IMG/VR virus record: IMGVR_UViG_3300043540_000087
Span: 1 to 33,852 of that record
Reading direction: 5' to 3' (one strand)
Length of the DNA stretch: 33,852 bases
DNA from: a virus
Positions 1-33,852 of the stretch are shown here, in pieces. The notes beneath the pieces were generated by a model that saw only the letters and a program-made list of their open reading frames with translations, had not been told where the DNA came from and did no database searches. Numbering within the stretch: position 1 is the first letter of the stretch; every line of letters starts with the position of its first letter. The position numbers were made by a program, and so were the translations under genes.

Positions 1-90
1 TGCAACTTGGCAACACCGAAGACCGTGAACAACGGCGACCCGGCGCCGAGCTTCGCGGCGGGTGCGCTGACGCTCCAGATCGACAACTGA
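1..90 (+). CDS. C-terminus of a tail tip or fibre protein (5' end outside window)
   Basis: An open frame from the first base ends in TGA at 88-90; 29 residues are visible, ending in ALTLQIDN. The frame has the same G/C third-position bias as the neighbours, and its stop overlaps the next ATG (ATGA), as throughout this operon. In siphoviruses of this type the tail tip gene is followed by small accessory genes and lysis genes, so this is probably the end of the same kind of gene that is cut at the right edge of the window. That identity is inferred from position; the visible piece is too short to recognise a domain. Confidence 0.6.
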   Translation, partial: CNLATPKTVNNGDPAPSFAAGALTLQIDN

Positions 91-338
91 TGAGCGCCAT
101 CGGCCAATGGGTGTCGAACGTGCTCTACGCGCTCGACGCCCTCGCCAATGCCGTCATTGCGGGCGACCCGCGCATGACGCTCAGCGCTCGCATGGGCCGC
201 GACATCGAGCGCGGCCTGTGCAAGGCATGCCGCGCCGTGTGCTGGGCGCTCTCGCTGATCCAGCGCGACCACTGCGCACGCGCATGGGCCGACGAGCAGC
301 GCGGCGCGGACGGCTCCAACCAGATTGCAGGAGATTGA
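90..338 (+). CDS. Small conserved phage protein downstream of the tail tip gene
   Basis: An 82-residue protein whose ATG overlaps the preceding stop (ATGA), so it is probably translationally coupled. The N-terminal 25 residues are hydrophobic/amphipathic (IGQWVSNVLYALDALANAV), followed by a charged helix with three Cys (CKACRAVC). I recognise the type: short proteins opening with a similar amphipathic helix are common just after tail tip genes in proteobacterial siphoviruses, but I know of no assigned function. The next gene starts two bases after the stop. Confidence 0.6.
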   Translation: MSAIGQWVSNVLYALDALANAVIAGDPRMTLSARMGRDIERGLCKACRAVCWALSLIQRDHCARAWADEQRGADGSNQIAGD

Positions 339-339
339 G

Positions 340-864
340 ATGATTCGCACAACCGGATTCCCGAAGCACGGGTCTCACGCGCTTGTGAAGGCGTGTCAGC
401 TATCCGGCGTCCCGTGCTCGGTCGAGCACTTGCCTTTCTCGACTGGTGTGATCCCGACCACTGACAAGCACATCTTCATCAAGCGCGACCCCCGCAATGC
501 GCTGCTGAGCTGGGTCCGCGCGCAGGGCCAGCCCGCCACCGCGGGGATGTTCATCACCTACTTGCAGGCATTCCAGAACGGCATTTCGCTGGTGGACTCA
601 ATGGCGCCCTACGAAGGGTGGCTCACGGACCAAAACACCCACGTCGTCAGGTTCGAGGATCTGGTGGCGAGCGAGGCTGCCTTACAGGCGGTAGTGGCAT
701 TCGTCGGGGTTCCGTACATCACCGGCGCGTGGGGCTATCTACCGGGCGGCACCGTCACATGGACCGGGGCGCTCTCGGACTACGCGACGATCTGGACGCC
801 TGAAGTCGATGCCGCCTGGAACGCAGCAGGCGGGCCGGCATTGCTGACGCGGTGGGGGTACTAG
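340..864 (+). CDS. Compact sulfotransferase-like protein
   Basis: 174 residues. The ATG at 340 is preferred over the in-frame TTG at 325 because AGGAGA lies at 329-334. The protein follows the sulfotransferase pattern. There is an N-terminal phosphosulfate loop TTGFPKHGSHAL (residues 4-15; K9, G11, S12, H13). IFIKRDPRNALLSW (45-58) matches the PAPS 3'-phosphate motif with R49 and S57. RFEDLV (104-109) matches the family's R-Y/F-E-D-L signature. The C-terminal WTGALSDY...WTPE resembles the G-dW...fT region. Family members transfer sulfonate from PAPS to a hydroxyl or amine. At 174 residues it is much shorter than the usual 250-300, and His replaces Thr in the loop. The substrate is unknown; its place among receptor-binding genes suggests a surface glycan or a tail protein (inference). 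It could also bind nucleotide without being active. Confidence 0.72.
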   Translation: MIRTTGFPKHGSHALVKACQLSGVPCSVEHLPFSTGVIPTTDKHIFIKRDPRNALLSWVRAQGQPATAGMFITYLQAFQNGISLVDSMAPYEGWLTDQNTHVVRFEDLVASEAALQAVVAFVGVPYITGAWGYLPGGTVTWTGALSDYATIWTPEVDAAWNAAGGPALLTRWGY

Positions 865-867
865 AGC

Positions 868-1185
868 GTGGAGATGCTCATCTGCCTCGTGGACCGGAGC
901 GCCGATTATGGCGATGTGCACGCCGGCGACGTGATCGCGGCTATGCCCGATGGGTGGCCGTGGTCTGCGCTGGAGCGGAGCAATCCGAACTGGTCGCTCA
1001 TCAGTTCTCCGATCACTCAAAGCGAGGCCGACGCATTGCAGGGCACAGACTTGCCAGTTCCCCCACCAGCCGCCTCGCCGCCATTGCGCTGGAGGCGCTA
1101 TAGGGTCGACACGACCGGGATGGTTGGTGCGTCCAGCATGGCAATGGACGCGGGGGCCTTCCGCTCTCGAATGGCGCTCAAGTGA
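868..1185 (+). CDS. Small phage protein of unknown function
   Basis: 105 residues from a GTG at 868, three bases after the preceding stop. The N-terminal half (MEMLICLVDRSADYGDV, then GDVIAAMPDGWPWS) resembles short proteins found near fibre genes of other proteobacterial phages; the C-terminal half is Pro/Ala-rich with the basic patch RWRRYR. No catalytic motif is visible. The stop overlaps the next start (GTGA). Base use here is less G/C-biased at third positions than in the head genes, as in the neighbouring sulfotransferase-like and beta-helix genes. Confidence 0.5.
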   Translation: MEMLICLVDRSADYGDVHAGDVIAAMPDGWPWSALERSNPNWSLISSPITQSEADALQGTDLPVPPPAASPPLRWRRYRVDTTGMVGASSMAMDAGAFRSRMALK

Positions 1186-2171
1186 CCACTACTGTCGTCC
1201 ATTCAGTCGGCACGGCCGGTCGAGACTACTCGACGCTCGCGGCCTGGGCTGCGGCGCTGCCCGCCAGCTTGGTGGCCGTTGACCAAATCTGGAAAGCGGA
1301 GCTGTACAACGACAGCCTGTTTACCACTGCCGCGACGATTTCCACGACGACCGACGCGACGCGGTATGCGTGGATCACCGCCGCTGCGGGCCAGTCATTT
1401 GCCGACAATGCGGGCAAGCTCACGAATGCGCTGTTCTTCAATCAGGCCAATGGCGTTGCCTTGCAGGCGAACTCGACCGCCAGTATTACCCTCTCTGCGG
1501 CGAATGTACTAGTCGAGCGGCTCCAAATCGACGGCGGGAGTGACCGTGCGATATCGCAGGGCACTGCCGGCACAGGGGTTACTGTAAAGCAATGCTTACT
1601 CACCAACTCATTCACCGGCACATCTAATGGGTGCGCCGATATGAGAGGCGGGGCGGTAGTAAACAGTATCGCCATCTCCCGAGGCGGCGGCGTAGGCTTT
1701 CTGTCGCTGTCAAGTAATTCGCAATTCAGAAACTGCACCGCCGTCACCAACGGCACTGCGGGAACGCGAGGCTTTCGGGGCAACTACGACAGTCCGCTGT
1801 ATCTCAACTGCGCGGCGTTTGGCTTTGCGATCGCATTCGCCAATACCGGCAACGCATCGAATGACTACAACGCATCGGACTTGGCTTCGACGCCGGGCGC
1901 GCACTCTCTGTCGAGTCTGACCTACGCAAATCAGTTCGTCAGCGTCACATCGGATTACCGGGTCAAGGCCGGCGCGAACCTCATCAATGCCGGTACGCCT
2001 GATGCAACCAACACGGGCGGCGTTGACATAGTCGGGCAGACGCGCAGCGCAACCACGCCGACCATTGGGGCGTGGGAGTACATCGCCAGCGCCCTCTACC
2101 CCACGCTGAGCAACATCCGCTTCTCCCCCGCCACATCGACGGGCGGCTATTTCGCGGTTGACCTGAGCTGA
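1182..2171 (+). CDS. Right-handed beta-helix-type tail or receptor-binding protein
   Basis: 329 residues from a GTG that overlaps the previous stop. The opening HSVGTAGRDYSTLAAWAAAL is typical of parallel beta-helix proteins, where a short helix caps the solenoid. The middle has repeated short hydrophobic strands and Asn/Gly/Ser turns (VLVERLQIDGG, VTVKQCLLTNS, AVVNSIAISRG, SQFRNCTAVTNG), the stacked-coil pattern. Near the end, INAGTPDA...GVDIVGQTR...IGAWEY resembles the usual terminus of secreted beta-helix domains (DIGAFEY-like). In phages such proteins form tailspikes that bind or cut surface polysaccharide; no catalytic pair can be assigned here. Third-position GC is lower than in the structural genes, suggesting recent acquisition. 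The next gene starts two bases after the stop. Confidence 0.65.
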   Translation: MTTTVVHSVGTAGRDYSTLAAWAAALPASLVAVDQIWKAELYNDSLFTTAATISTTTDATRYAWITAAAGQSFADNAGKLTNALFFNQANGVALQANSTASITLSAANVLVERLQIDGGSDRAISQGTAGTGVTVKQCLLTNSFTGTSNGCADMRGGAVVNSIAISRGGGVGFLSLSSNSQFRNCTAVTNGTAGTRGFRGNYDSPLYLNCAAFGFAIAFANTGNASNDYNASDLASTPGAHSLSSLTYANQFVSVTSDYRVKAGANLINAGTPDATNTGGVDIVGQTRSATTPTIGAWEYIASALYPTLSNIRFSPATSTGGYFAVDLS

Positions 2172-2173
2172 CC

Positions 2174-3217
2174 ATGGCAACGCTCTATTGGTGCGTCACT
2201 TCCGCAGGCGGCACAGTAACCTGGGCGCGCGCCAACGTCGGCACCACGGCGGGCTTCACGGCCACCAGCGGCACGATCCTCGACTACGGCAGCGGCACGC
2301 CCAGCGCAGCGCCGAGCACGTTCACCAGCTCGACGCCAGCGACGCACGAAGCGGCGAGCACGAGCTATCCAGGCTTTGCGGTTTGGGACGATGGGACCAA
2401 TGCGAGTCCGGTCGCTTCGGGTACGGTCACGACTGCGGCGGCTGCGATTGCACTCGTGGCGAGCGCAGCCGCTCAAGCCACCGCGACCGCAGCGCTGACC
2501 ACAAGTATCCCGCTTGCAGCATCGGCGTCCGGTGCGGCCATCTCGACGGCTGCGCTCTCGACATCGATTCCGCTGGCTGGCTCGGCGTCCGGCAGCGCGA
2601 CAGCTTCCGCAGCGCTGACGACCTCGATCCCGCTTAGCGCGAGCGCATCAGGCGCGGCGACTTCGACGGCAGCACTCACAACGTCGATCCAGCTCTCGGC
2701 ATCCGCAACGGCGCAAGCCACGGCCACGGCCAGCCTGACCACTGGCAGCGCCGGACTGGCAGCGGCTGCGATTGCCCAGGCTTCCGCCTCGGCCACTCTG
2801 ACGACCGCCATTGCACTGCAAGCCAGCGCAGCAGCTCAAGCGACTGCAACGGCTGCGCTGACGGCCCCAGGCTCTGGATTGAGCGCGAGCGCAACAGCGC
2901 AGGCCGCGGCGACAGCGAACCTCACAACGGCGATCCCGTTGCAAGCGGCCGCGACCGCTACCGCAACGGCAACAGCCGCTCTCACGGCGACCGCCGGGAC
3001 TCTTGCGGCTGCTGCCATCGCGCAGGCTCAAGCGTCGGCGAACCTGACGACGGCTATTGCACTGGTGGCGACGGCGCAGGCGCAGGCGACCGCGACGGCA
3101 TCGCTGGCCGGCGCAACGATTCCAGATCCGCCAGCAAGCCGCCTTCTCGTCCTCTCGGCCGAGCGCCGCGTGCTCGCGCTGCCCCCCGAAAACCGCATCC
3201 TGAGGCTTCCGACATGA
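2174..3217 (+). CDS. Ala/Ser/Thr repeat fibre protein
   Basis: 347 residues. Residues 1-85 form a non-repetitive N-terminal domain with aromatic residues. Residues ~88-310 are about eleven tandem units of 20-21 residues, each starting near LTT and running like LTTSIPLAASASGAAISTAA. The last ~35 residues carry SAERRVLALPPENRILRLPT, two copies of a short E-x-R-x-L-x-L motif that I associate with phage structural proteins. The repeats contain no Cys, Trp, Lys or Arg; alternating small residues suggest a beta-structured or fibrous rod (inference). It overlaps the next gene by ATGA and sits between the beta-helix gene and a fibre-tail adaptor-like gene, so a role in a side or tail fibre is likely. 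Confidence 0.62.
   Translation: MATLYWCVTSAGGTVTWARANVGTTAGFTATSGTILDYGSGTPSAAPSTFTSSTPATHEAASTSYPGFAVWDDGTNASPVASGTVTTAAAAIALVASAAAQATATAALTTSIPLAASASGAAISTAALSTSIPLAGSASGSATASAALTTSIPLSASASGAATSTAALTTSIQLSASATAQATATASLTTGSAGLAAAAIAQASASATLTTAIALQASAAAQATATAALTAPGSGLSASATAQAAATANLTTAIPLQAAATATATATAALTATAGTLAAAAIAQAQASANLTTAIALVATAQAQATATASLAGATIPDPPASRLLVLSAERRVLALPPENRILRLPT
2435..3103 (+). repeat. Tandem 60-63 bp coding repeats in the fibre gene
   Basis: About eleven degenerate in-frame units of 60 or 63 bp. Their LTT-type starts fall at residues 108, 128, 148, 168, 188, 209, 229, 250, 270 and 291 of the fibre protein. Units differ at many positions but keep register (20 or 21 codons), so length variation in whole codon units would not break the frame. 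There are no spacers, so this is not a CRISPR array. Confidence 0.8.
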
Positions 3218-3537
3218 GCGTCAACGACTCCAACTTCGTCCTCATCGAGGGCGGTCAGTGGCAGATCGACAAGCGGTTCGACTCCACCCTGATCTACGGC
3301 ATCGACGTGGCCGACGTGATCGAGCCTGGCGCCACGGTCACCGCCGCCACCGCGACGCTGGTGGACCCGGCGTCGGGCCTGACTATTGGCGCCTCGGCCA
3401 GCGTCAGCGGCACGTTCGTCAAGTTCAGGGTCGGCGCCGGCCCGGTCAACACCAAGCCGGGCGTCTTCGTGCAGTGGACCACCGACGCCGGCGACACCGA
3501 CGGCCGGACGCTGCAGATCAACCTGATCACGCGGTAG
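3214..3537 (+). CDS. Phage fibre-tail adaptor-like protein
   Basis: 107 residues; the ATG overlaps the preceding stop (ATGA). The layout is two beta-rich halves: an N-terminal DKRFDSTLIYGIDVADVIEP, a central VTAATATLVDPASGL, and an end containing FVQWTTDAGDTDGRTLQINL. It resembles small all-beta phage proteins whose pattern is a D-Y-x-I/V-D-W segment, a T-V-P segment and a terminal G-R-T-x-x-x-x-I strand, described as fibre-tail adaptors. Position directly after the repeat fibre gene agrees. The match is by eye and moderate; a generic small beta-sandwich structural protein is the alternative. Confidence 0.5.
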   Translation: MSVNDSNFVLIEGGQWQIDKRFDSTLIYGIDVADVIEPGATVTAATATLVDPASGLTIGASASVSGTFVKFRVGAGPVNTKPGVFVQWTTDAGDTDGRTLQINLITR

Positions 3538-3553
3538 CCCATGGGAGGCCACG

Positions 3554-3868
3554 ATGAGCGACGCCATGTACCCCACCAGGCTGCGGTGGGACGCGCACGC
3601 GCGGTGTGGGTGCGCTCGGCACGACGGCGTGTCTGTCGAGCTGCGCCGGGCGCCCCTCATCGAGGGCCTGGACCATGCCGTGGAGCTGGACTTCGTGCCG
3701 CACGTGTGCGCGATGGTGCGCGTGCAGCCGCACGAGGCGATGCGCGACATGAGTGCCGACGAGATGCACGACGCGCTCGCGCTGCTGCAGGCGATGGCCT
3801 GGCAGGCGCGCGACGCACTGGACAACGGATCGACCATCGTGGTTGTCGTCGAGGGAAGGGAGCGGTGA
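3554..3868 (+). CDS. Hypothetical protein upstream of the lysis genes
   Basis: 104 residues; start ATG at 3554 with GGGAGG at 3543-3548. It is soluble, with three Cys near the front (CGCARHDG plus C55 in VPHVCAMV) and an acidic, amphipathic C-terminal half (MSADEMHDALALLQAMAWQA). I do not recognise a family. It is neither a spanin (no lipobox, no N-terminal membrane anchor) nor a holin. Its TGA overlaps the ATG of the next gene, so it belongs to the same operon. Confidence 0.55.
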   Translation: MSDAMYPTRLRWDAHARCGCARHDGVSVELRRAPLIEGLDHAVELDFVPHVCAMVRVQPHEAMRDMSADEMHDALALLQAMAWQARDALDNGSTIVVVVEGRER

Positions 3869-4185
3869 TGCCGGATCAGGATGCAGATGCCCGCGTGCTG
3901 CTGGCGATCGCGGAGCTGCGCCGCACGCAGGCCGACGCGATGGCCGACGCGATCCGCAGCGTGCTGACCAATCCGGACGACATCAGCGCGTTCCTCGACC
4001 TGGTGGCCTCCAAGGCGCAGGAGCGCGCCACGCACGCCGCCGGCCGAGGCGTGTGGTGGCTCGTCAAGGCCGCGCTGTCGCGCTGGCTGGTGATCGCGGT
4101 GATCGTGCTCACCATGGCCAAGATCACCGGGTGGGAAGCCGCGGCGAAGGTAGGGAAGTGGCTCAGCTCATGGGGCGCGTCGTGA
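3868..4185 (+). CDS. Single-membrane-span protein of the lysis cassette
   Basis: 105 residues from the ATG at 3868 (ATGA overlap). Residues 1-60 are a soluble, mostly helical domain with many Asp and Arg. A hydrophobic span follows at about residues 63-86 (VWWLVKAALSRWLVIAVIVL), then a short C-terminal tail ending in KWLSSWGAS. It directly precedes a holin-like gene. A regulator of the holin or a pinholin-like protein is plausible, but nothing in the sequence proves this. Confidence 0.6.
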   Translation: MPDQDADARVLLAIAELRRTQADAMADAIRSVLTNPDDISAFLDLVASKAQERATHAAGRGVWWLVKAALSRWLVIAVIVLTMAKITGWEAAAKVGKWLSSWGAS

Positions 4186-4445
4186 CACCGCTGGACCTCA
4201 TCCGCGGCCGCGACGGCGCGATGAGCCTCACCAAACTGGCGGCGTCGACGGCGCACGCGCTCATGGCGGCCGGCTTCGGCCTGGTCACCGTCCGCCAGGG
4301 CTTCATTGCAGAGCTGTGGCTCATCTACGGCGGCTACGCCATCGGGCACGCGATCGCCGACAAGACCGCCAGCCAGGTGAAGGACTTCAAGGACCGCGCG
4401 CTCGATGCGCGCACTGACACGCCGGCCGCGCCGGCCAAGGAGTGA
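4182..4445 (+). CDS. Putative phage holin
   Basis: 87 residues from a GTG at 4182 that overlaps the previous stop (GTGA). An in-frame ATG at 4170 is possible, but the GTG start gives MTPLDLIRGRDGAMSLTKL, which matches how I remember related phage membrane proteins beginning (a short L-R-x-x-D-G segment then S-x-T-K-L). Two hydrophobic stretches at about residues 20-37 and 44-61 are separated by RQGFIAE, followed by a charged tail. Holins form holes in the inner membrane to release a cytoplasmic endolysin; one lies two genes downstream. Confidence 0.6.
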   Translation: MTPLDLIRGRDGAMSLTKLAASTAHALMAAGFGLVTVRQGFIAELWLIYGGYAIGHAIADKTASQVKDFKDRALDARTDTPAAPAKE

Positions 4446-4448
4446 CCG

Positions 4449-4928
4449 ATGTTGACCCTCTTGTCCATGCTCGGCGGCGGCCTGTTCCGGCTGATCCCGT
4501 TCATCGTCGACTTTTTCAAGCAGAAGCAGGACGCCGAGCACGAGTACCGCATGACCCAGCTGCAGCTCGAGATCGACAAGGCCCGCGCCACGCAGGCGAT
4601 CGACCTGGCCAACGCGCAGGCCGCGATCGCCACCAACGCCGGCGAGATGAGCGCCTGGGTCGAGGCGATCAAGGGCCAAAGCGGCAAGACCGGCATCAGT
4701 TGGGTGGACGCGGTGTCTGCCACGGTTCGGCCGTTCCTGACCTACTACTGGTGCGTCGGGCTGTACGGCGGCGCGAAGGCCATCCAGGTGGCCGTGGCGC
4801 TGCAGGCGCGCGTGCCGCTCGAGCAGCTGGTGCCGATCCTCGTGACCGAGTTCGACCAACGCGTGATCGGCTCGATGCTGGCCTTCTGGTTCGTCGACCG
4901 CGCGCTGAAGCACATGGCGGGCAAGTGA
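4449..4928 (+). CDS. Three-segment membrane protein, GTA-type holin-like
   Basis: 159 residues. A hydrophobic N-terminus (residues 1-24, MLTLLSMLGGGLFRLIPFIV) precedes a charged coiled-coil region (25-75, rich in Gln, Glu, Ala). Two further hydrophobic stretches lie at about 94-118 (RPFLTYYWCVGLYGGAKAIQ) and 137-152 (MLAFWFVDRAL). The order membrane-coil-membrane-membrane and the R-P-x-L-T-Y-Y motif fit the family called holin of 3TMs, known from gene transfer agents and many phages. It lies between the other holin-like gene and the endolysin. Its stop overlaps the endolysin ATG (TGATG). Confidence 0.65.
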   Translation: MLTLLSMLGGGLFRLIPFIVDFFKQKQDAEHEYRMTQLQLEIDKARATQAIDLANAQAAIATNAGEMSAWVEAIKGQSGKTGISWVDAVSATVRPFLTYYWCVGLYGGAKAIQVAVALQARVPLEQLVPILVTEFDQRVIGSMLAFWFVDRALKHMAGK

Positions 4929-5347
4929 TGGTGCCGCCACGCGCGCTCATCGCGCTGATCCAGCGCTTCGAGGGCCTGCGCCTGCGGGCCTACACCTGCC
5001 CTGCAGGCGTCTGGACGTGCGGCTGGGGGTCGACGGGCCCGGACGTGACGCCGGCCACCGAGTGGACCCGCGAGCAGGCCGACGCCCGGCTGATGCTGGA
5101 CGCCCAGGCGGCGACGATCGCAGCGAAGAAGCTCTGCCCGCTGGCCGACGGCGACGAGCTCGCCGCGCTGGCCGACTTCGCCTACAACCTGGGTGCCACG
5201 CGCCTGGCCGGCTCGACGCTGCGGCGCAAGTTCAACGCCGGCGACCTGGCCGGCGCGCGGCTCGAGATCCGGCGCTGGGTATACGCCGGCGGCCGCGTGC
5301 TGCCCGGGTTGGTGCTGCGGCGCGCGGCGGAGGCGGCGTTGCTGTAG
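4928..5347 (+). CDS. GH24 (T4-type) lysozyme endolysin
   Basis: 139 residues from the ATG at 4928, overlapping the preceding stop. It hydrolyses the beta-1,4 bond between MurNAc and GlcNAc in peptidoglycan. The family signature is at the front: RFEGLRLRAYTCPAGVWTCG, with E15, then C24, then T30. The spacing E-8-C-5-T equals that of the T4 E-D-T triad, with Cys in place of Asp, a variant I recall in other phage GH24 enzymes. ADFAYNLGATRLAGSTL (about residues 82-98) is the usual second conserved block. There is no N-terminal signal or signal-anchor segment, so release should depend on a holin. The last 14 codons are part of a 46 bp sequence repeated 574 bp downstream. Confidence 0.9.
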   Translation: MVPPRALIALIQRFEGLRLRAYTCPAGVWTCGWGSTGPDVTPATEWTREQADARLMLDAQAATIAAKKLCPLADGDELAALADFAYNLGATRLAGSTLRRKFNAGDLAGARLEIRRWVYAGGRVLPGLVLRRAAEAALL

Positions 5348-5348
5348 G
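5303..5348 (+). repeat. Direct repeat copy 1 (endolysin 3' end)
   Basis: 46 bp covering the last codons and stop of the endolysin gene. It matches 5877-5922 at 43 of 46 positions; the mismatches are at 5308, 5309 and 5329. Both copies encode PGLVLRRAAEAALL-stop or nearly so. The two copies bracket a complete minus-strand two-gene unit. Confidence 0.85.
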
Positions 5349-5358
5349 CAGCGACGCG

Positions 5359-5574
5359 CTAGGCGCTGCGCAGCCTGGGCGCCAGCGCTTCAAGCGCGGC
5401 GGCGCGCTCCTGCGTCAGGCGCAGCAGGTCCAGATAGAGGCCCGGGGGTACGTCATGCGTGCCAGCCACCCAGCGCCGCACGGTCCGATCCGACACGCCG
5501 AGGTCTCGCGCCAGGTCGGACTGCCAGCGAGGGCCGTACAGCGCCTCGCCAGCCTCGACGAGCAGCCGGCTCAA
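5359..5574 (-). CDS. Small helix-turn-helix DNA-binding protein
   Basis: 71 residues, using a TTG start at 5574 that overlaps the upstream gene's stop (TTGA). The open frame continues to 5691, but the extra N-terminus (about 39 residues) only shadows the upstream gene, and MSRLLVEAGEALYGPRWQ is how I expect such proteins to begin. Residues 16-37 (WQSDLARDLGVSDRTVRRWV) form a clear helix-turn-helix; the C-terminal helix LYLDLLRLTQERAAALEALA could dimerise. As second gene of a two-gene operon whose promoter carries a palindrome, it is a candidate autorepressor (inference). It could be the antitoxin-like partner of the upstream gene, but no toxin fold is recognised. Confidence 0.62.
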   Translation of the reverse strand: MSRLLVEAGEALYGPRWQSDLARDLGVSDRTVRRWVAGTHDVPPGLYLDLLRLTQERAAALEALAPRLRSA

Positions 5575-5792
5575 GCTGCGACGAACCGTGTGGGCTCGCT
5601 CTTGTCCCACAGCATCAGGCGTTGCGAGCGCCCATCGCGGAGATACTGACGGAGCTGCTTGTGCGTGATGGCCTCGACGCGCTGCGCGCATTGCGCCGGG
5701 AAGGCCGCGCGCGCTGATTGCGAGGTGAAGCTCAGGACGCTGGCGGTGCTGTCGAAGTTGCCGTCTTGCCAGGTGATCGAGTGGTAACGCAT
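5571..5792 (-). CDS. Unrecognised 73-residue protein, first gene of a reverse-strand cassette
   Basis: The start at 5792 is favoured because AAGGAGG stands just before the ATG. A longer frame from 5855 would begin upstream of the predicted transcription start. The protein is basic and soluble; it begins MRYHSITWQDGNFDS and has a predicted helical middle with the pattern FTSQSARAAFPAQ, THKQLRQYLRDGRSQRL, and an end rich in Trp/Asp/Glu. I do not recognise the family. It is coupled to the downstream HTH gene by a TTGA overlap. Its location between the endolysin and attP, its opposite orientation and its own promoter are typical of a moron expressed from the prophage. Confidence 0.6.
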   Translation of the reverse strand: MRYHSITWQDGNFDSTASVLSFTSQSARAAFPAQCAQRVEAITHKQLRQYLRDGRSQRLMLWDKSEPTRFVAA

Positions 5793-5832
5793 GGTGGCCT
5801 CCTTGCCATCTCGCGCGGGCCTGATTGCCCTG

Positions 5833-5872
5833 CGCATGTCCGAAGAATAGGACATGCGGCCGCCACTGTCAA
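5833..5872 (-). promoter_or_regulatory. Promoter with palindromic operator for the reverse cassette
   Basis: Read on the minus strand: -35 TTGACA (5867-5872), a 17 bp spacer, -10 TATTCT (5844-5849). The -10 is enclosed by a perfect 9 bp inverted repeat, CGCATGTCC (5833-5841) and GGACATGCG (5850-5858), with an 8 bp centre. A protein bound to the palindrome would block RNA polymerase. Transcription would start near 5837, about 45 bases before the ATG at 5792. This is a near-consensus sigma70 promoter, the strongest in the window by inspection. Confidence 0.75.
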
Positions 5873-5876
5873 GCGG

Positions 5877-5922
5877 CCCGGACTGGTGCTGCGGCGCGCG
5901 GCCGAGGCGGCGTTGCTGTAGG
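5877..5922 (+). repeat. Direct repeat copy 2 (duplicated endolysin 3' end)
   Basis: Second copy of the endolysin 3' end, 43/46 identical to 5303-5348, including the stop codon (5919-5921). It is not attached to an endolysin reading frame with a start of its own. It marks the outer edge of the reverse-strand cassette and lies 13 bp before the first attP arm repeat. Confidence 0.85.
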
Positions 5923-7590: not shown

Positions 7591-8042
7591 GCCATCTCCC
7601 CGTTCCGCGCCCGATGCGCCGCCTCGAGCTGCTGCACCCGCGCCTCGGCGATGTCTGCCGCCGCGCTGGTCGTGGCGCGGTCGACGGTCTCGGCCAGCGC
7701 GTCCATCACCATCACGCCGGTCTTGGCCAGCTGGTACTCGGCGCCGGTGAACAGCACCTTTCCGGTGCTGCCGTGGCGCGCCACGACGCGCAGCATCAGG
7801 TCGTGCTGGGCCTGCATCTCGTCGACGCCGCGCCCGAGGTCCTGGGCCACGCGCAGCCAGGTCAGCACGCCGCCCACGGTCTGCCACATGACCTCTTCGT
7901 TCGCGCGTCCGTGGGCGATGTCGTCCAGGTTGACGACGTGTGCCATGGCCAGGTCGCGCACCTGGTCGGGCAGCAGCCGCGGCCGCAGGCCGCGCGGCGG
8001 CCGCGGCACGACGATCTTGCGGCGCGTGCGCTTTCGGGTCAT
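7587..8042 (-). CDS. Conserved phage early-operon protein of unknown function
   Basis: 151 residues; the ATG at 8042 overlaps the upstream stop (ATGA). A basic N-terminus (TRKRTRRKIVVPRPPRGLRP) precedes a mostly helical body with MAHVVNLDDIAHG, WQTVGGVLTWLRVAQ and FTGAEYQLAKTGVMVMDAL. I recognise the type as a frequent companion in early regions of Burkholderiales prophages, without a known role. The basic leader suggests nucleic acid binding (inference). Confidence 0.6.
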   Translation of the reverse strand: MTRKRTRRKIVVPRPPRGLRPRLLPDQVRDLAMAHVVNLDDIAHGRANEEVMWQTVGGVLTWLRVAQDLGRGVDEMQAQHDLMLRVVARHGSTGKVLFTGAEYQLAKTGVMVMDALAETVDRATTSAAADIAEARVQQLEAAHRARNGEMA

Positions 8043-8896
8043 GTTGGTCGAAAGCCGCCAGCTGCGTCCGAGGCAGACGATCGCGTGCGCCGTGTCGAAG
8101 GGTTCGTCTCGTCCCGCTGCAGGACCGGTCTTAGGATCTTGCGCACTCCTTCGATGACGGTGCTTATGTCATTGATTTGAATTCGCGATAGTTCGCTGTT
8201 ATCGCGGTCGAAGATCTTCAAGCATCGCGCAAATATGTCGTTCGCATCGACGGCACGCACTGTTCCGTTGATATAGGCGCGGAAAAGAGTTTGGACGCTG
8301 CGTGGCATTCGGTCGAAATCTTTCCGCACGAGCGTGGTGTAGACCAGCTTCACGTAATCGGAATCTCCGGTCTTCATGGATATCACCGCTGCCGCGCGGA
8401 CCGGTGCAGAACTCCAAGTTCTTGTGTTGCTCGCGCAAGCATCCATCAGCTGTTCGATTTCGGGTCTTATGAATTCGACGATCGGCTCCACGTAGGCTGC
8501 CGTGATGCCAGCAAAAGTTCCACTGTAGAGCCGCGCCAGGTAATGCGCAGGCTGCGTGATGTTGTTGCCGACACGCAGCACGTCAGAGATCGAGCGCTTT
8601 GCCATCGTCGAGTCGATGACTCGGAACGCATCCTCCCTTGTGAGCCCGCGACTCACAAGCATGGGCGCCGAGAAGTTTTCTGGCATTTCCGAGATGGCCT
8701 TCAACCGGTGTTGTCCATCAAGCAGATTGCCATCCGAGTCAAATGCAATGCCTTGATGGGTCATGACATATTCTCCGCGTCGGAAAGCTCGAATCATGGT
8801 TTCGACATGCCCGCGTCGAAGAGCTCTATTGTCGACATTCCTCTTTAAGTATTCCTTTGCCAAAGCAGGAGTCACGTCCTCTACCTGTGTCTTCAT
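8039..8896 (-). CDS. DGQHRL-motif (ParB-like) phage protein
   Basis: 285 residues from the ATG at 8896 (GGAGA upstream). An in-frame ATG at 8923 is a good alternative because it overlaps the stop of an upstream remnant frame. Residues 1-70 carry the family signature: VTPALAKEYL, NRALRRGHVETMI, GEYVMTHQGIAFDSDG, then DGQHRL. This motif resembles the ParB/sulfiredoxin nucleotide-binding loop, and phage and mobile-element proteins with it are common but poorly understood. The C-terminal part is helical. GC is clearly lower from about 8150 to 8900 than in flanking genes, indicating separate origin. The continuous frame upstream to 9043 adds 49 codons from a broken gene. Confidence 0.7.
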   Translation of the reverse strand: MKTQVEDVTPALAKEYLKRNVDNRALRRGHVETMIRAFRRGEYVMTHQGIAFDSDGNLLDGQHRLKAISEMPENFSAPMLVSRGLTREDAFRVIDSTMAKRSISDVLRVGNNITQPAHYLARLYSGTFAGITAAYVEPIVEFIRPEIEQLMDACASNTRTWSSAPVRAAAVISMKTGDSDYVKLVYTTLVRKDFDRMPRSVQTLFRAYINGTVRAVDANDIFARCLKIFDRDNSELSRIQINDISTVIEGVRKILRPVLQRDETNPSTRRTRSSASDAAGGFRPT

Positions 8897-8919
8897 GGTT
8901 TGTTCTCCAGTGATCAATT

Positions 8920-9043
8920 TCATAAAAAGCCCTTCGTGAAGCCGCTGTCGATGCAATGGCCCCGGTAGCGGACGGCGTTGCCGAACCGGGCGCGTCTCGT
9001 GCAGATGCTCGAGCGGGATCTGGGTGATGGTTTCCTGGCTCAT
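8920..9043 (-). pseudogene. Remnant of a ParB-like gene joined to another gene's end
   Basis: ATG at 9043, preceded by a purine-rich AGAGG, begins MSQETITQIPLEHLHETR, the usual opening of ParB-domain proteins. After 18 codons the expected continuation is lost. A second frame then reads RFGNAVRYRGHCIDSGFTKG and stops (TGA at 8920-8922) exactly across the next gene's ATG at 8923. This looks like an internal deletion that fused the start of one gene with the end of another. The first frame happens to stay open into the DGQHRL gene, so a fused 334-residue product is possible. Confidence 0.5.
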
Positions 9044-30970: not shown

Positions 30971-31383
30971 GCGCGCGCGAGGCCGTCGTCGCCGAGGCGC
31001 TGTCCTGGCTCGGCACGCCGTACCACCACCACGGCCGCGTCAAGGGCGTGGGCGTCGATTGCGCCATGCTGCTGGCCGAGGTGTACGAGCGCTGCGGCCT
31101 GATCGAGCGCGTCGAGCCTGGCTTCTATCCCGTCGACTGGCATTTCCACCGCGATGAGGAGGCGTTCGTCGGGTGGCTCGCGCGTGTCGGCGCGCGCCAG
31201 GTCGACGCCCCCCAGCTCGGCGACGTGGCGGTCTTCAAGTACGGCCGCGCCTACAGCCACGGCGGCATCGTCGTGCCCGGCGGGTGCGCGCACGCCTTCA
31301 TGCGCGCCGGGCGGGTCATGACCACGCGCCTGGACGAAGAGCCGCTGCTGGGCCGGCCGACCCAGTTCTGGAGCCTGCTGTGA
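30967..31383 (+). CDS. NlpC/P60 tail peptidase (gpK-like)
   Basis: 138 residues from ATG 30967 (ATGA overlap). Cys nucleophile C32 (GVGVDCAMLLAEVY) and H98 (AYSHGGIVV) give the NlpC/P60 dyad; H109 could be the third residue. The family cuts peptide cross-links in peptidoglycan. On the tail tip it would help the tube penetrate the cell wall at infection. It corresponds to the C-terminal domain of lambda gpK; there is no JAB domain here. Confidence 0.88.
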   Translation: MSAREAVVAEALSWLGTPYHHHGRVKGVGVDCAMLLAEVYERCGLIERVEPGFYPVDWHFHRDEEAFVGWLARVGARQVDAPQLGDVAVFKYGRAYSHGGIVVPGGCAHAFMRAGRVMTTRLDEEPLLGRPTQFWSLL

Positions 31384-33852
31384 GCGGCCCGAGGAACACG
31401 CTCGCCACGAGCCAGACCCGGCTCGAAGCGATCCCGATCCAGAGCAGCGCCTACGGCCTGCCGATCCCAATCCTTGGTGGCGTCACGCGCGTGGCGGCCA
31501 ACCTGCTGTACTACAACGACTTCAAGTCGATCGAGCAGCACCAGAGCGGCGGCAAGGGCGGCAGCCCGTCCCGGGTGACCTACACCTACACGGCGTCGAT
31601 CATCATGGCGCTGTGCCACGGCAAGATTGCCGGCGTTCCGAGGGTGTGGGTGGGCAAGACGGTCTACTCGGACCTCGACGCCGGCACGCCGGCCAGCTAC
31701 GCCATAGCCAGCGAGAGCTACACCGTGCCGGGCGGCGGCGGCAGCTACACCACGGCGCACGCGGCAGCCTACTCGGCGAATTCCAGCGTCACTGCGTCCA
31801 CCGGCTCGGGAGACGCGCTCAACCAGTGGACGCTGGCCGAGGGCATCGACTACACGGTCAGTGCAGGCGTCTACAACTTCCCGGCGACGAGTTCGGCCGT
31901 GGGCGCGTCGCTCACCATCATCTACACCTACCTGTCCGCGGCAGCGGCGAACTCGGCGCTGGCCAAGGTTGGCATGACGCTGATGTCGGGCGACATGAAC
32001 CAGTCCGCGCCGAGCTGGGTGACGAGCCTGCACCCGGGCGACGCGCTGGGCTACGCCGGCATGGCCTCACTGAGCGCGCAGGACTACCCGCTTGGCACCT
32101 CGGCCAGCGTGCCGAACCACATCTTCGAGGTCGTCGGACCAGGCGCCTACAGCCTCGGCTCTTCTGTGCCGGACATCGACCCTGCGCCGTTTGTCGCCCG
32201 AATCCTGCAGGACGCGCGCTACGGCGCCCGGCTGCCGTCCGAGTTTCTGAGCGCGACGACGCAGTGGAGCAACTACTGCCGCGCGAACGGCATCCTCGTC
32301 TCGCCGCTGATCGAGACGCAGATGAAGGCGGCCGACTTCCTGAAGCTCGCCGCGGACATTACCAACTGTGGCGTCGTGTGGAGCGCGAACACCCTCAAGT
32401 TCATCCCCTACGGTGACACCGGCGCCACGGGCAACGGCGCCACCTTCACGCCGAACACGACCCCGATCTACGACCTCAGTGCAGATGTCTTCATCGTGCA
32501 GGGCGCGGCGCCGCCGGTAAAGGTCATCAACAAGGCCGCCAGCGAGGCATACAACCACATCCGCGTCGAGTTCAAGAACCGCGCGAACGGCTACGCGAAG
32601 GAGATCGCCGAAGCCAAGGACGACGCCGACATCGCCGGCAGCACGCAGCGCTCGGCGCCCATCTTCAACGCGGACTGGATCTGCGACGCCACCATCGCGC
32701 GCAACGTCGCGCAGATCATGCTGCAGCGCTCGGTCTACGTGCGCACGACTTACCAGTTCAGCCTGCCCTGGACCTTCGACTTCCTCGAGCCGATGGATCT
32801 GGTGACGCTCACCGACGCGGCAACCGGGCTGCAGCAGCACGCGGTGCGCATCATCGAGATCGACGAGAGCGACAAGGGCCAGGACTACACGGCCGAGGAG
32901 TTCGCCCTTGGGGTGGCGAGCACGGCGACCTACAGCACGCAGGTCGGCGCCGGGTTTTCGGCAAACTGGGGCGCGAGCCCTGGCTCGGCGCTGGCGCCGA
33001 TGATCTTCGAGGCGCCTGGCGCGCTCACGGTCAACGGCCTCGAGCTGTACGTGGCGGCGATCGGGACCGGCGCGAACTGGGGAGGCTGCAACGTCTGGGT
33101 GAGCCTGGACGGCACGAACTACAAGCAGATCGGCGTCATCACGCAGGGCAGCCGCTACGGCACCGTCACGGCCGACGGCGGCACGGCGCTGGGCGTGGCG
33201 CTCAACGGTGGCACGCTGCTCAGCGGGAGTGCGGCGGACGCCGCGGCGCTGACCACGCTGTGCTATGTCGGCGGCGCGACGCCGGAGTACATGGCGTTCC
33301 AGACTGCCACGCTCACCGGGACTGAGGCCTACACCCTGGGAGGCCTCAACCGCGCTGCCTACGGCACCACGGTGACCGCGCACGCCCCCGGGACGCCTTT
33401 TGCGCGCGTGGACAGCAGCGTGGCGAAGAGCGGCGCGCTCGACCAGTCGCTAGTCGGCAAGACCGTGCATGTGAAGCTCACCAGCTTCAACCTGTTCGGC
33501 GCGGCCGAGGAAAGCCTCGCGGCTGTCGCCGACTACACCTACACCATCACCGGCTCCCAGGTGCTCGGCAATGCCGGCGCCGCGGCCTACGCAGGCATCC
33601 AGGCGGCCAGCAGCGACAACATCCTGACGGCCGGCGAGAAGCCCCCGATCATCCAGGACTACGCCGTCATCACCGCCGAGCAAGCCGGCATCGACGCCCA
33701 GGCCACCGCCTACGGCATCACCACCGAGAAGACCGCCTACGACAGCGCGATCGCAGCGCTCACCAGCTACCTCGGCACGCTGACCAGCCCGACCGCGTGG
33801 AACAGCACGACGGGCGACACGACCATCGTCGGCTCGACGTTCCGCAGCAACT
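31380..33852 (+). CDS. Tail tip / host specificity protein (cut by window end)
   Basis: 824 codons from a GTG at 31380 (GTGA overlap with the NlpC gene) are open to the last base. The N-terminal region (IPIQSSAYGLPIPILGGVTR, YTYTASIIMALCHGKIAGVP, RVWVGKTVY) and the mid part (ARILQDARYGARLPSEFLS, YCRANGILVSPLIETQMKAA) are those of phage tail tip proteins with a Phage-tail_3 domain, central baseplate components. The last visible part (LTSPTAWNSTTGDTTIVGST) is where J-type proteins continue to a helical region and fibronectin-like or receptor-binding domains, here missing. It determines host binding. Confidence 0.88.
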   Translation, partial: MSGPRNTLATSQTRLEAIPIQSSAYGLPIPILGGVTRVAANLLYYNDFKSIEQHQSGGKGGSPSRVTYTYTASIIMALCHGKIAGVPRVWVGKTVYSDLDAGTPASYAIASESYTVPGGGGSYTTAHAAAYSANSSVTASTGSGDALNQWTLAEGIDYTVSAGVYNFPATSSAVGASLTIIYTYLSAAAANSALAKVGMTLMSGDMNQSAPSWVTSLHPGDALGYAGMASLSAQDYPLGTSASVPNHIFEVVGPGAYSLGSSVPDIDPAPFVARILQDARYGARLPSEFLSATTQWSNYCRANGILVSPLIETQMKAADFLKLAADITNCGVVWSANTLKFIPYGDTGATGNGATFTPNTTPIYDLSADVFIVQGAAPPVKVINKAASEAYNHIRVEFKNRANGYAKEIAEAKDDADIAGSTQRSAPIFNADWICDATIARNVAQIMLQRSVYVRTTYQFSLPWTFDFLEPMDLVTLTDAATGLQQHAVRIIEIDESDKGQDYTAEEFALGVASTATYSTQVGAGFSANWGASPGSALAPMIFEAPGALTVNGLELYVAAIGTGANWGGCNVWVSLDGTNYKQIGVITQGSRYGTVTADGGTALGVALNGGTLLSGSAADAAALTTLCYVGGATPEYMAFQTATLTGTEAYTLGGLNRAAYGTTVTAHAPGTPFARVDSSVAKSGALDQSLVGKTVHVKLTSFNLFGAAEESLAAVADYTYTITGSQVLGNAGAAAYAGIQAASSDNILTAGEKPPIIQDYAVITAEQAGIDAQATAYGITTEKTAYDSAIAALTSYLGTLTSPTAWNSTTGDTTIVGSTFRSN

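Follow-up and report, generated by a model that had tools for sequence, protein, structure and literature searches.

Homology and a predicted fold identify the 174-residue protein P0001 as a genuine homologue of the PAPS sulfotransferases, whose activity seems likely from its conserved residues and whose gene is the first of a conserved cassette that continues with a gene for a partner protein of about 105 residues and a gene for a beta-helix protein. The window, that is the whole stretch of DNA that was analysed, is a virus record of 33,852 bases. The PHROG matches spread across it include an integrase, a ParB-like protein, a repressor, a CII-like activator and a primase/helicase, together with a terminase, a portal, a major head protein, a tape measure, tail proteins and an endolysin. 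As this set combines an integrase and a repressor with head and tail genes, the virus is probably a temperate tailed phage; among cultured phages, the terminase closest to its own is that of Marinobacter phage PS3 (51%). The ParB-like protein, encoded on the minus strand at 8039-9043 in a phage that also carries an integrase, matches phrog_5931 strongly and phrog_1033 weakly. From the gene order, the genome appears to be circularly arranged and opened within the tail region, at the two ends of the window (1-90 and 31173-33852); each end seems to interrupt a tail protein, and as the two broken proteins do not connect in frame, some intervening sequence is probably missing. The P0001 reading frame (Table 1) starts with ATG, has AGGAG a few bases upstream and is separated by a single base from the stop of the gene before it, and the neighbouring genes abut or overlap.

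Table 1. Features of the window around the sulfotransferase gene and within it
Feature	Positions	Strand	Basis or remark
C-terminus of a probable tail protein, ending ...TPKTVNNGDPAPSFAAGALTLQIDN	1-90	+	Very similar ending in a protein of L027
phrog_3342 protein, 82 aa	90-338	+	Stop one base before the sulfotransferase start; outside the conserved cassette
Minimal PAPS sulfotransferase homologue P0001, 174 aa	340-864	+	tblastn relatives, profile, predicted fold, invariant residues
Partner protein, about 105 aa	868-1185	+	Seems to be co-inherited with the sulfotransferase; L010 and L015 have it fused to the beta-helix protein
Beta-helix protein	1182-2171	+	Weak PF13229; 4-base overlap with the partner gene; likely receptor-binding or tail component
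Putative 5'-phosphosulfate-binding loop PKHGSHAL, residues 8-15	361-384	+	Lys9, Gly11 and His13 do not vary among 15 phage members
His30 codon in VEHLP, candidate catalytic base	427-429	+	Invariant in 15 phage members; present in 3/4 cellular relatives
Putative 3'-phosphate-binding segment RDPRNALLS	484-510	+	Arg49 and Ser57 invariant, with a spacing of eight residues
C-terminal TWTGALSDYATIWTPE block, residues 140-155	757-804	+	Position of the SULT RKGxxGDW region; Trp152 invariant

A sequence-only reading had called P0001 sulfotransferase-like on the basis of short motifs, all of which are present in the order proposed: PKHGSHAL (residues 8-15), RDPRN...S (49-57), RFEDL (104-108), TWTG..SDY (140-148) and WTPE (152-155). 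The call is borne out by relatives recovered with tblastn, by a family profile and by the predicted fold. Taken alone, P0001 stays below the Pfam cut-offs (PF13469, 16.5 bits, E 0.01; PF00685, 15.1 bits for a cut-off of 22, E 0.015) and has no significant match in PHROG, and exact-peptide scans with it gave nothing in viral or genome contigs. Using tblastn of P0001 against plasmid records, we found two proteins annotated as "sulfotransferase domain-containing" (E 5e-10 and 6e-7), both of which exceed the PF00685 cut-off. An alignment that included the first of these plasmid relatives led to five phage relatives and a second round to eight phage members, to which the MAG contig L016 and then L017 were later added; in a five-sequence alignment (A1), no stretch was conserved well enough for a scan. 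The phage relatives are 34-56% identical to P0001 over nearly its full length. PF00685 is matched by all six phage members of alignment A3 (best E 3.2e-7), the L040 enzyme scores 34.3 bits against it, which is above the cut-off, and the profile of the A3 family reaches SULT structures (E 2.8e-5), the best 18 matches being all sulfotransferases.

An AF2 model from the single P0001 sequence was useless (pLDDT 35) and was discarded. Run on the ten-sequence alignment A4, AF2 gave a model with a pLDDT of 88.8 and a pTM of 0.85, and the 50 PDB matches listed by Foldseek for this model are all sulfotransferases, many of them PAP-bound (best E 5.6e-7, prob 1.0, TMq 0.72). The predicted fold is thus that of the cytosolic SULTs of PF00685, such as SULT2B1b (PDB 1q1z; prob 1.0, TMq 0.72), with which P0001 also shares the phosphosulfate-binding (PSB) loop with its lysine, the R...S segment for the 3'-phosphate with a spacing of eight, and a conserved histidine after the loop. 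Lys9, Gly11, His13, His30, Arg49, Ser57, Glu106 and Trp152 are invariant in 15/15 phage members; Lys9 and Gly11 are kept in the four cellular relatives as well, and Arg49 and Ser57, with the same spacing, are present in all 19 proteins when phage members and cellular relatives are taken together. The KxHLP motif of SULTs, which the VEHLP around His30 resembles, holds the catalytic base, and His30 would be its equivalent by motif and order rather than by superposition. By contrast with the SULTs, which have 270-300 residues, P0001 has little of the region that leads from the PSB-loop helix to the catalytic histidine, and its RKGxxGDW block is degenerate, TWTGALSDY standing in the right place with neither the R nor the K (Gly143 is found in 6/15 members and Asp147 in 12/15).

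Shortness and His13 had earlier been given as reasons to doubt activity, and both doubts can be set aside. Shortness is common to the whole phage family (about 166-201 residues), all members of which keep the same catalytic and PAPS-contact residues, and it mainly reflects the near-loss of the stretch between the PSB-loop helix and His30, where the cellular relatives have tens more residues; His13, being invariant in 15 phage members, is a feature of the family and not damage. For the closest pair, L011 and L014, dN is 0.05 and dS 0.49, and the enzyme is apparently intact. A catalytically dead sulfotransferase fold that serves the tail in a structural, chaperone or binding role could account for so short an enzyme, for His10, a loop residue peculiar to P0001 (the other members have Ser, Ala, Thr or Met), and for a cupin-like alternative in the same gene position (see below) that could also be a binding protein; we nevertheless consider it very improbable, as the catalytic and PAPS-contact positions examined do not vary among members down to about 34% identity and as L011 and L014 give a dN/dS of about 0.1.

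The same reading had placed the gene between a tail tip gene and a beta-helix gene, with a short sulfotransferase fixed there. Linkage to the beta-helix gene is real and recurs across phages, so that the position is not the accident of one genome, but the gene directly upstream is the 82-aa phrog_3342 gene and the 105-aa gene intervenes on the other side. The order sulfotransferase, ~105-aa protein, beta-helix protein was found in 14 distinct phages (the window included and near-identical copies removed), in which the flanks of the cassette mostly differ. The 82-aa upstream gene was considered as a member of the module and rejected, as no sulfotransferase lies near its relatives in L002 and L003. 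The partner and beta-helix proteins are fused in two cases, and in these in-frame fusions (L010:8518-9891 and L015:8465-10009) a twin-arginine-like SRR..(L/I)K stretch and a hydrophobic run lie between the two parts. The beta-helix protein would be the one that binds the receptor. A 1221-aa protein of L018 (4237-7902) carries two tandem beta-helix domains of the cassette family, and no gene of the sulfotransferase position was found in L018. In the window, the beta-helix gene is followed at 2174-3217 by a gene for a 347-aa protein rich in Ala, Thr and Ser, with degenerate repeats (..ATAALTTSIPLxASAS..), for which we found no family match and no tandem repeat unit of more than 6 bases at the DNA level. 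From sequence reading, a short nucleotidyltransferase-like ORF (GRWQPFHEGH) lies upstream of the sulfotransferase in L035 (3264-3605).

Only one member of the family, 33-39% identical to the other phage members, lies outside the beta-helix cassette (L012:7175-7729), directly before what reads as a terminase-like gene. Its different location would suit an enzyme that sulfates a small molecule during infection, be it a metabolite, a lipid or a defence signal, and for which the place among tail genes is only a tolerated insertion site; the fold matches listed are also mostly small-molecule SULTs, and sulfotransferases of marine phages have been described, with a role called unclear (PMC10580990). 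This is improbable in our view, because a fixed order in 14 phages and an apparent co-inheritance with the partner are not expected of free insertion, and because hardly anything is left of the stretch from the PSB-loop helix to His30, a stretch that in SULTs would contribute to the acceptor pocket.

Scanning from the beta-helix side, with a query alignment built from sulfotransferase-linked beta-helix proteins, we found that the place of the sulfotransferase can be occupied by other genes. A cupin-like gene (profile matches, with weak Pfam support) stands in this slot before the 105-aa gene in 17 distinct contigs. The 35 contigs found from the beta-helix side hold a sulfotransferase in 9 cases, a cupin in 17 and neither in 9 (one-sided p 0.0007), proportions that are not frequencies since the query came from sulfotransferase-linked proteins, and none of the 35 holds both. 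The 105-aa gene was undetected between the cupin and beta-helix genes in a few of the cupin contigs. Proteins of the cupin-like family are mostly of 110-150 aa, carry the motif GH.HNFDHTT...H and have little or no Pfam support (L022:4151-4588, L027:4217-4585, L029:4185-4520 and about 14 further loci). In a single case, L023:3974-4597, the same slot is occupied by a SAM methyltransferase (PF08241, above the cut-off).

According to sequence comparisons, the slot gene seems to be co-inherited with the ~105-aa partner. On the tree of the beta-helix proteins, those linked to a sulfotransferase and those linked to a cupin are mixed, which takes at least six changes between the two, and a single sulfotransferase clade is rejected (AU p 5e-51), whereas the tree of the partner proteins, short and weakly resolved (2 starred branches of 25), needs three such changes and does not reject a single clade (AU p 0.30). 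Columns of the partner alignment differ by slot type (p to 2e-5), and those of the beta-helix alignment hardly do (best 1.3e-3 over 302 columns, not clearly beyond expectation). From the contrast between the trees and from the column tests, we infer that the slot gene is inherited with the partner and that beta-helix proteins are exchanged. As the link is tighter to the partner than to the beta-helix protein, some weight moves from a host receptor sugar to a protein of the cassette as the acceptor. At position Ser33 of the partner, Ser or Thr is found in 11 of the 14 proteins that accompany a sulfotransferase and in 2 of the 13 that accompany a cupin, a difference confounded by kinship, for which reason Ser33 is a possible acceptor site to be taken as a lead only.

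A scan for sigma-70-like consensus sequences, weak evidence in itself, found no promoter-like site on the plus strand in positions 1-5900; with the gene packed between tail genes, we infer that the sulfotransferase is expressed late, together with them. The best explanation, which we put forward tentatively and which is slightly more likely to be wrong than right, is that of an active, late and PAPS-fed sulfotransferase whose gene supplies the modifying enzyme of a receptor-binding cassette of three genes. The compact cytosolic enzyme would be expressed from a tightly packed operon that also holds the tail genes, and would take sulfate from PAPS made by the host. Its acceptor would most likely be a protein of the cassette, an option that we prefer with similar reserve, the ~105-aa partner or the beta-helix protein coming first, and new virions would then carry a sulfated tail component, presumably to the benefit of the phage. 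A late enzyme, paired with a partner that also occurs in fusion with the beta-helix protein, fits modification of a cassette protein, and such an acceptor is not far-fetched, since protein sulfation has a bacterial precedent in RaxST/RaxX of Xanthomonas (PMC6637879).

The nearest cellular relatives found, the alphaproteobacterial WP_114294770.1 and WP_215507032.1 (31% identity), share with the phage enzymes the C-terminal F/W-x-G-x-x-S...W and GG...GY blocks; they differ in their length of 216-252 aa and in their location in plasmid capsule/LPS clusters, and no beta-helix or partner gene was found near either locus. This location favours a sugar acceptor and keeps glycan sulfation alive: the enzyme would sulfate the host capsule, O-antigen or a lipid-linked precursor, and so alter or hide the receptor of the beta-helix protein, with superinfection exclusion, release of progeny without recapture and the keeping out of rivals as the benefits. 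Beta-helix folds often bind or cut polysaccharides, and O-antigen-modifying genes lie beside tailspike genes in P22-like and Shigella phages. Sulfation of a surface glycan also agrees with the KDO, gmd, GDP-fucose and glycosyltransferase genes that adjoin the cellular relatives, with the integrase and repressor of a window phage that is probably temperate, and with the O-antigen-modifying genes of serotype-converting phages (PMC3851460). We hold it to be a realistic possibility rather than a probability, because the consensus scan of 1-5900 found no independent promoter for a gene that abuts its neighbours, because neither the tree nor the alignment columns of the beta-helix protein track the slot type, though that protein would be the one to read the sugar, and because modification late in infection would leave the existing surface polymer unchanged.

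The P22 gtr and Sf6 oac genes, found near tailspike genes, encode enzymes of lysogenic conversion, which are produced in the lysogen and modify the O-antigen, often with membrane partners. The cassette resembles them in that a modifying enzyme is adjacent to a gene, here only presumed to be receptor-binding, in 14 phages; it differs in its chemistry and in that the sulfotransferase is packed among tail genes with a one-base gap upstream. The sulfotransferases of cyanophages and other marine phages (Sulfotransfer_3, PF13469) are likewise phage-borne proteins of this fold, some of about 200 aa, but are distant fold matches only (7-18% identical in BFVD), and the available text describes no tail cassette for them (PMC10580990). 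The "PAPS reductase/sulfotransferase" morons of Burkholderia phages (PMC2920897, PMC10269572) have a PAPS-linked name, and the CSP3 copy lies downstream of tail fibre genes; we rejected them as the same thing, since they are described as CysH-type PAPS reductases, which belong to a different family.

Using tblastn with P0001, P0002, the L012 and L040 enzymes and two beta-helix proteins, we found no significant relative in 50,697 cultured-phage records. About 800 genomes of the order and phylum of L016 gave only the L016 contig itself, which makes a widespread host gene unlikely. Our literature search found no account of a phage sulfotransferase by name, or of one together with a cupin and a tail fiber. 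Phage sulfotransferases as such are already known; what is new is a compact clade, apparently restricted to phages, in a modular and exchangeable cassette.

A broader proposal, which on present evidence is rather unlikely in its full form, is that an exchangeable modifier slot heads the receptor-binding cassette, that this slot is filled by a sulfotransferase, a metal-binding cupin or a methyltransferase, each co-inherited with a matched ~105-aa adaptor, and that its product modifies the adaptor or the beta-helix protein, giving virions with sulfated tail proteins where the sulfotransferase is present. If this were true, a swap in the slot would change how the tail works. The discovery of a phage with sulfated virion proteins would, to our knowledge, be a first. 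The fixed cassette and the natural replacement in its slot narrow the acceptor to a few candidates and make the question of what the enzyme sulfates a testable one.
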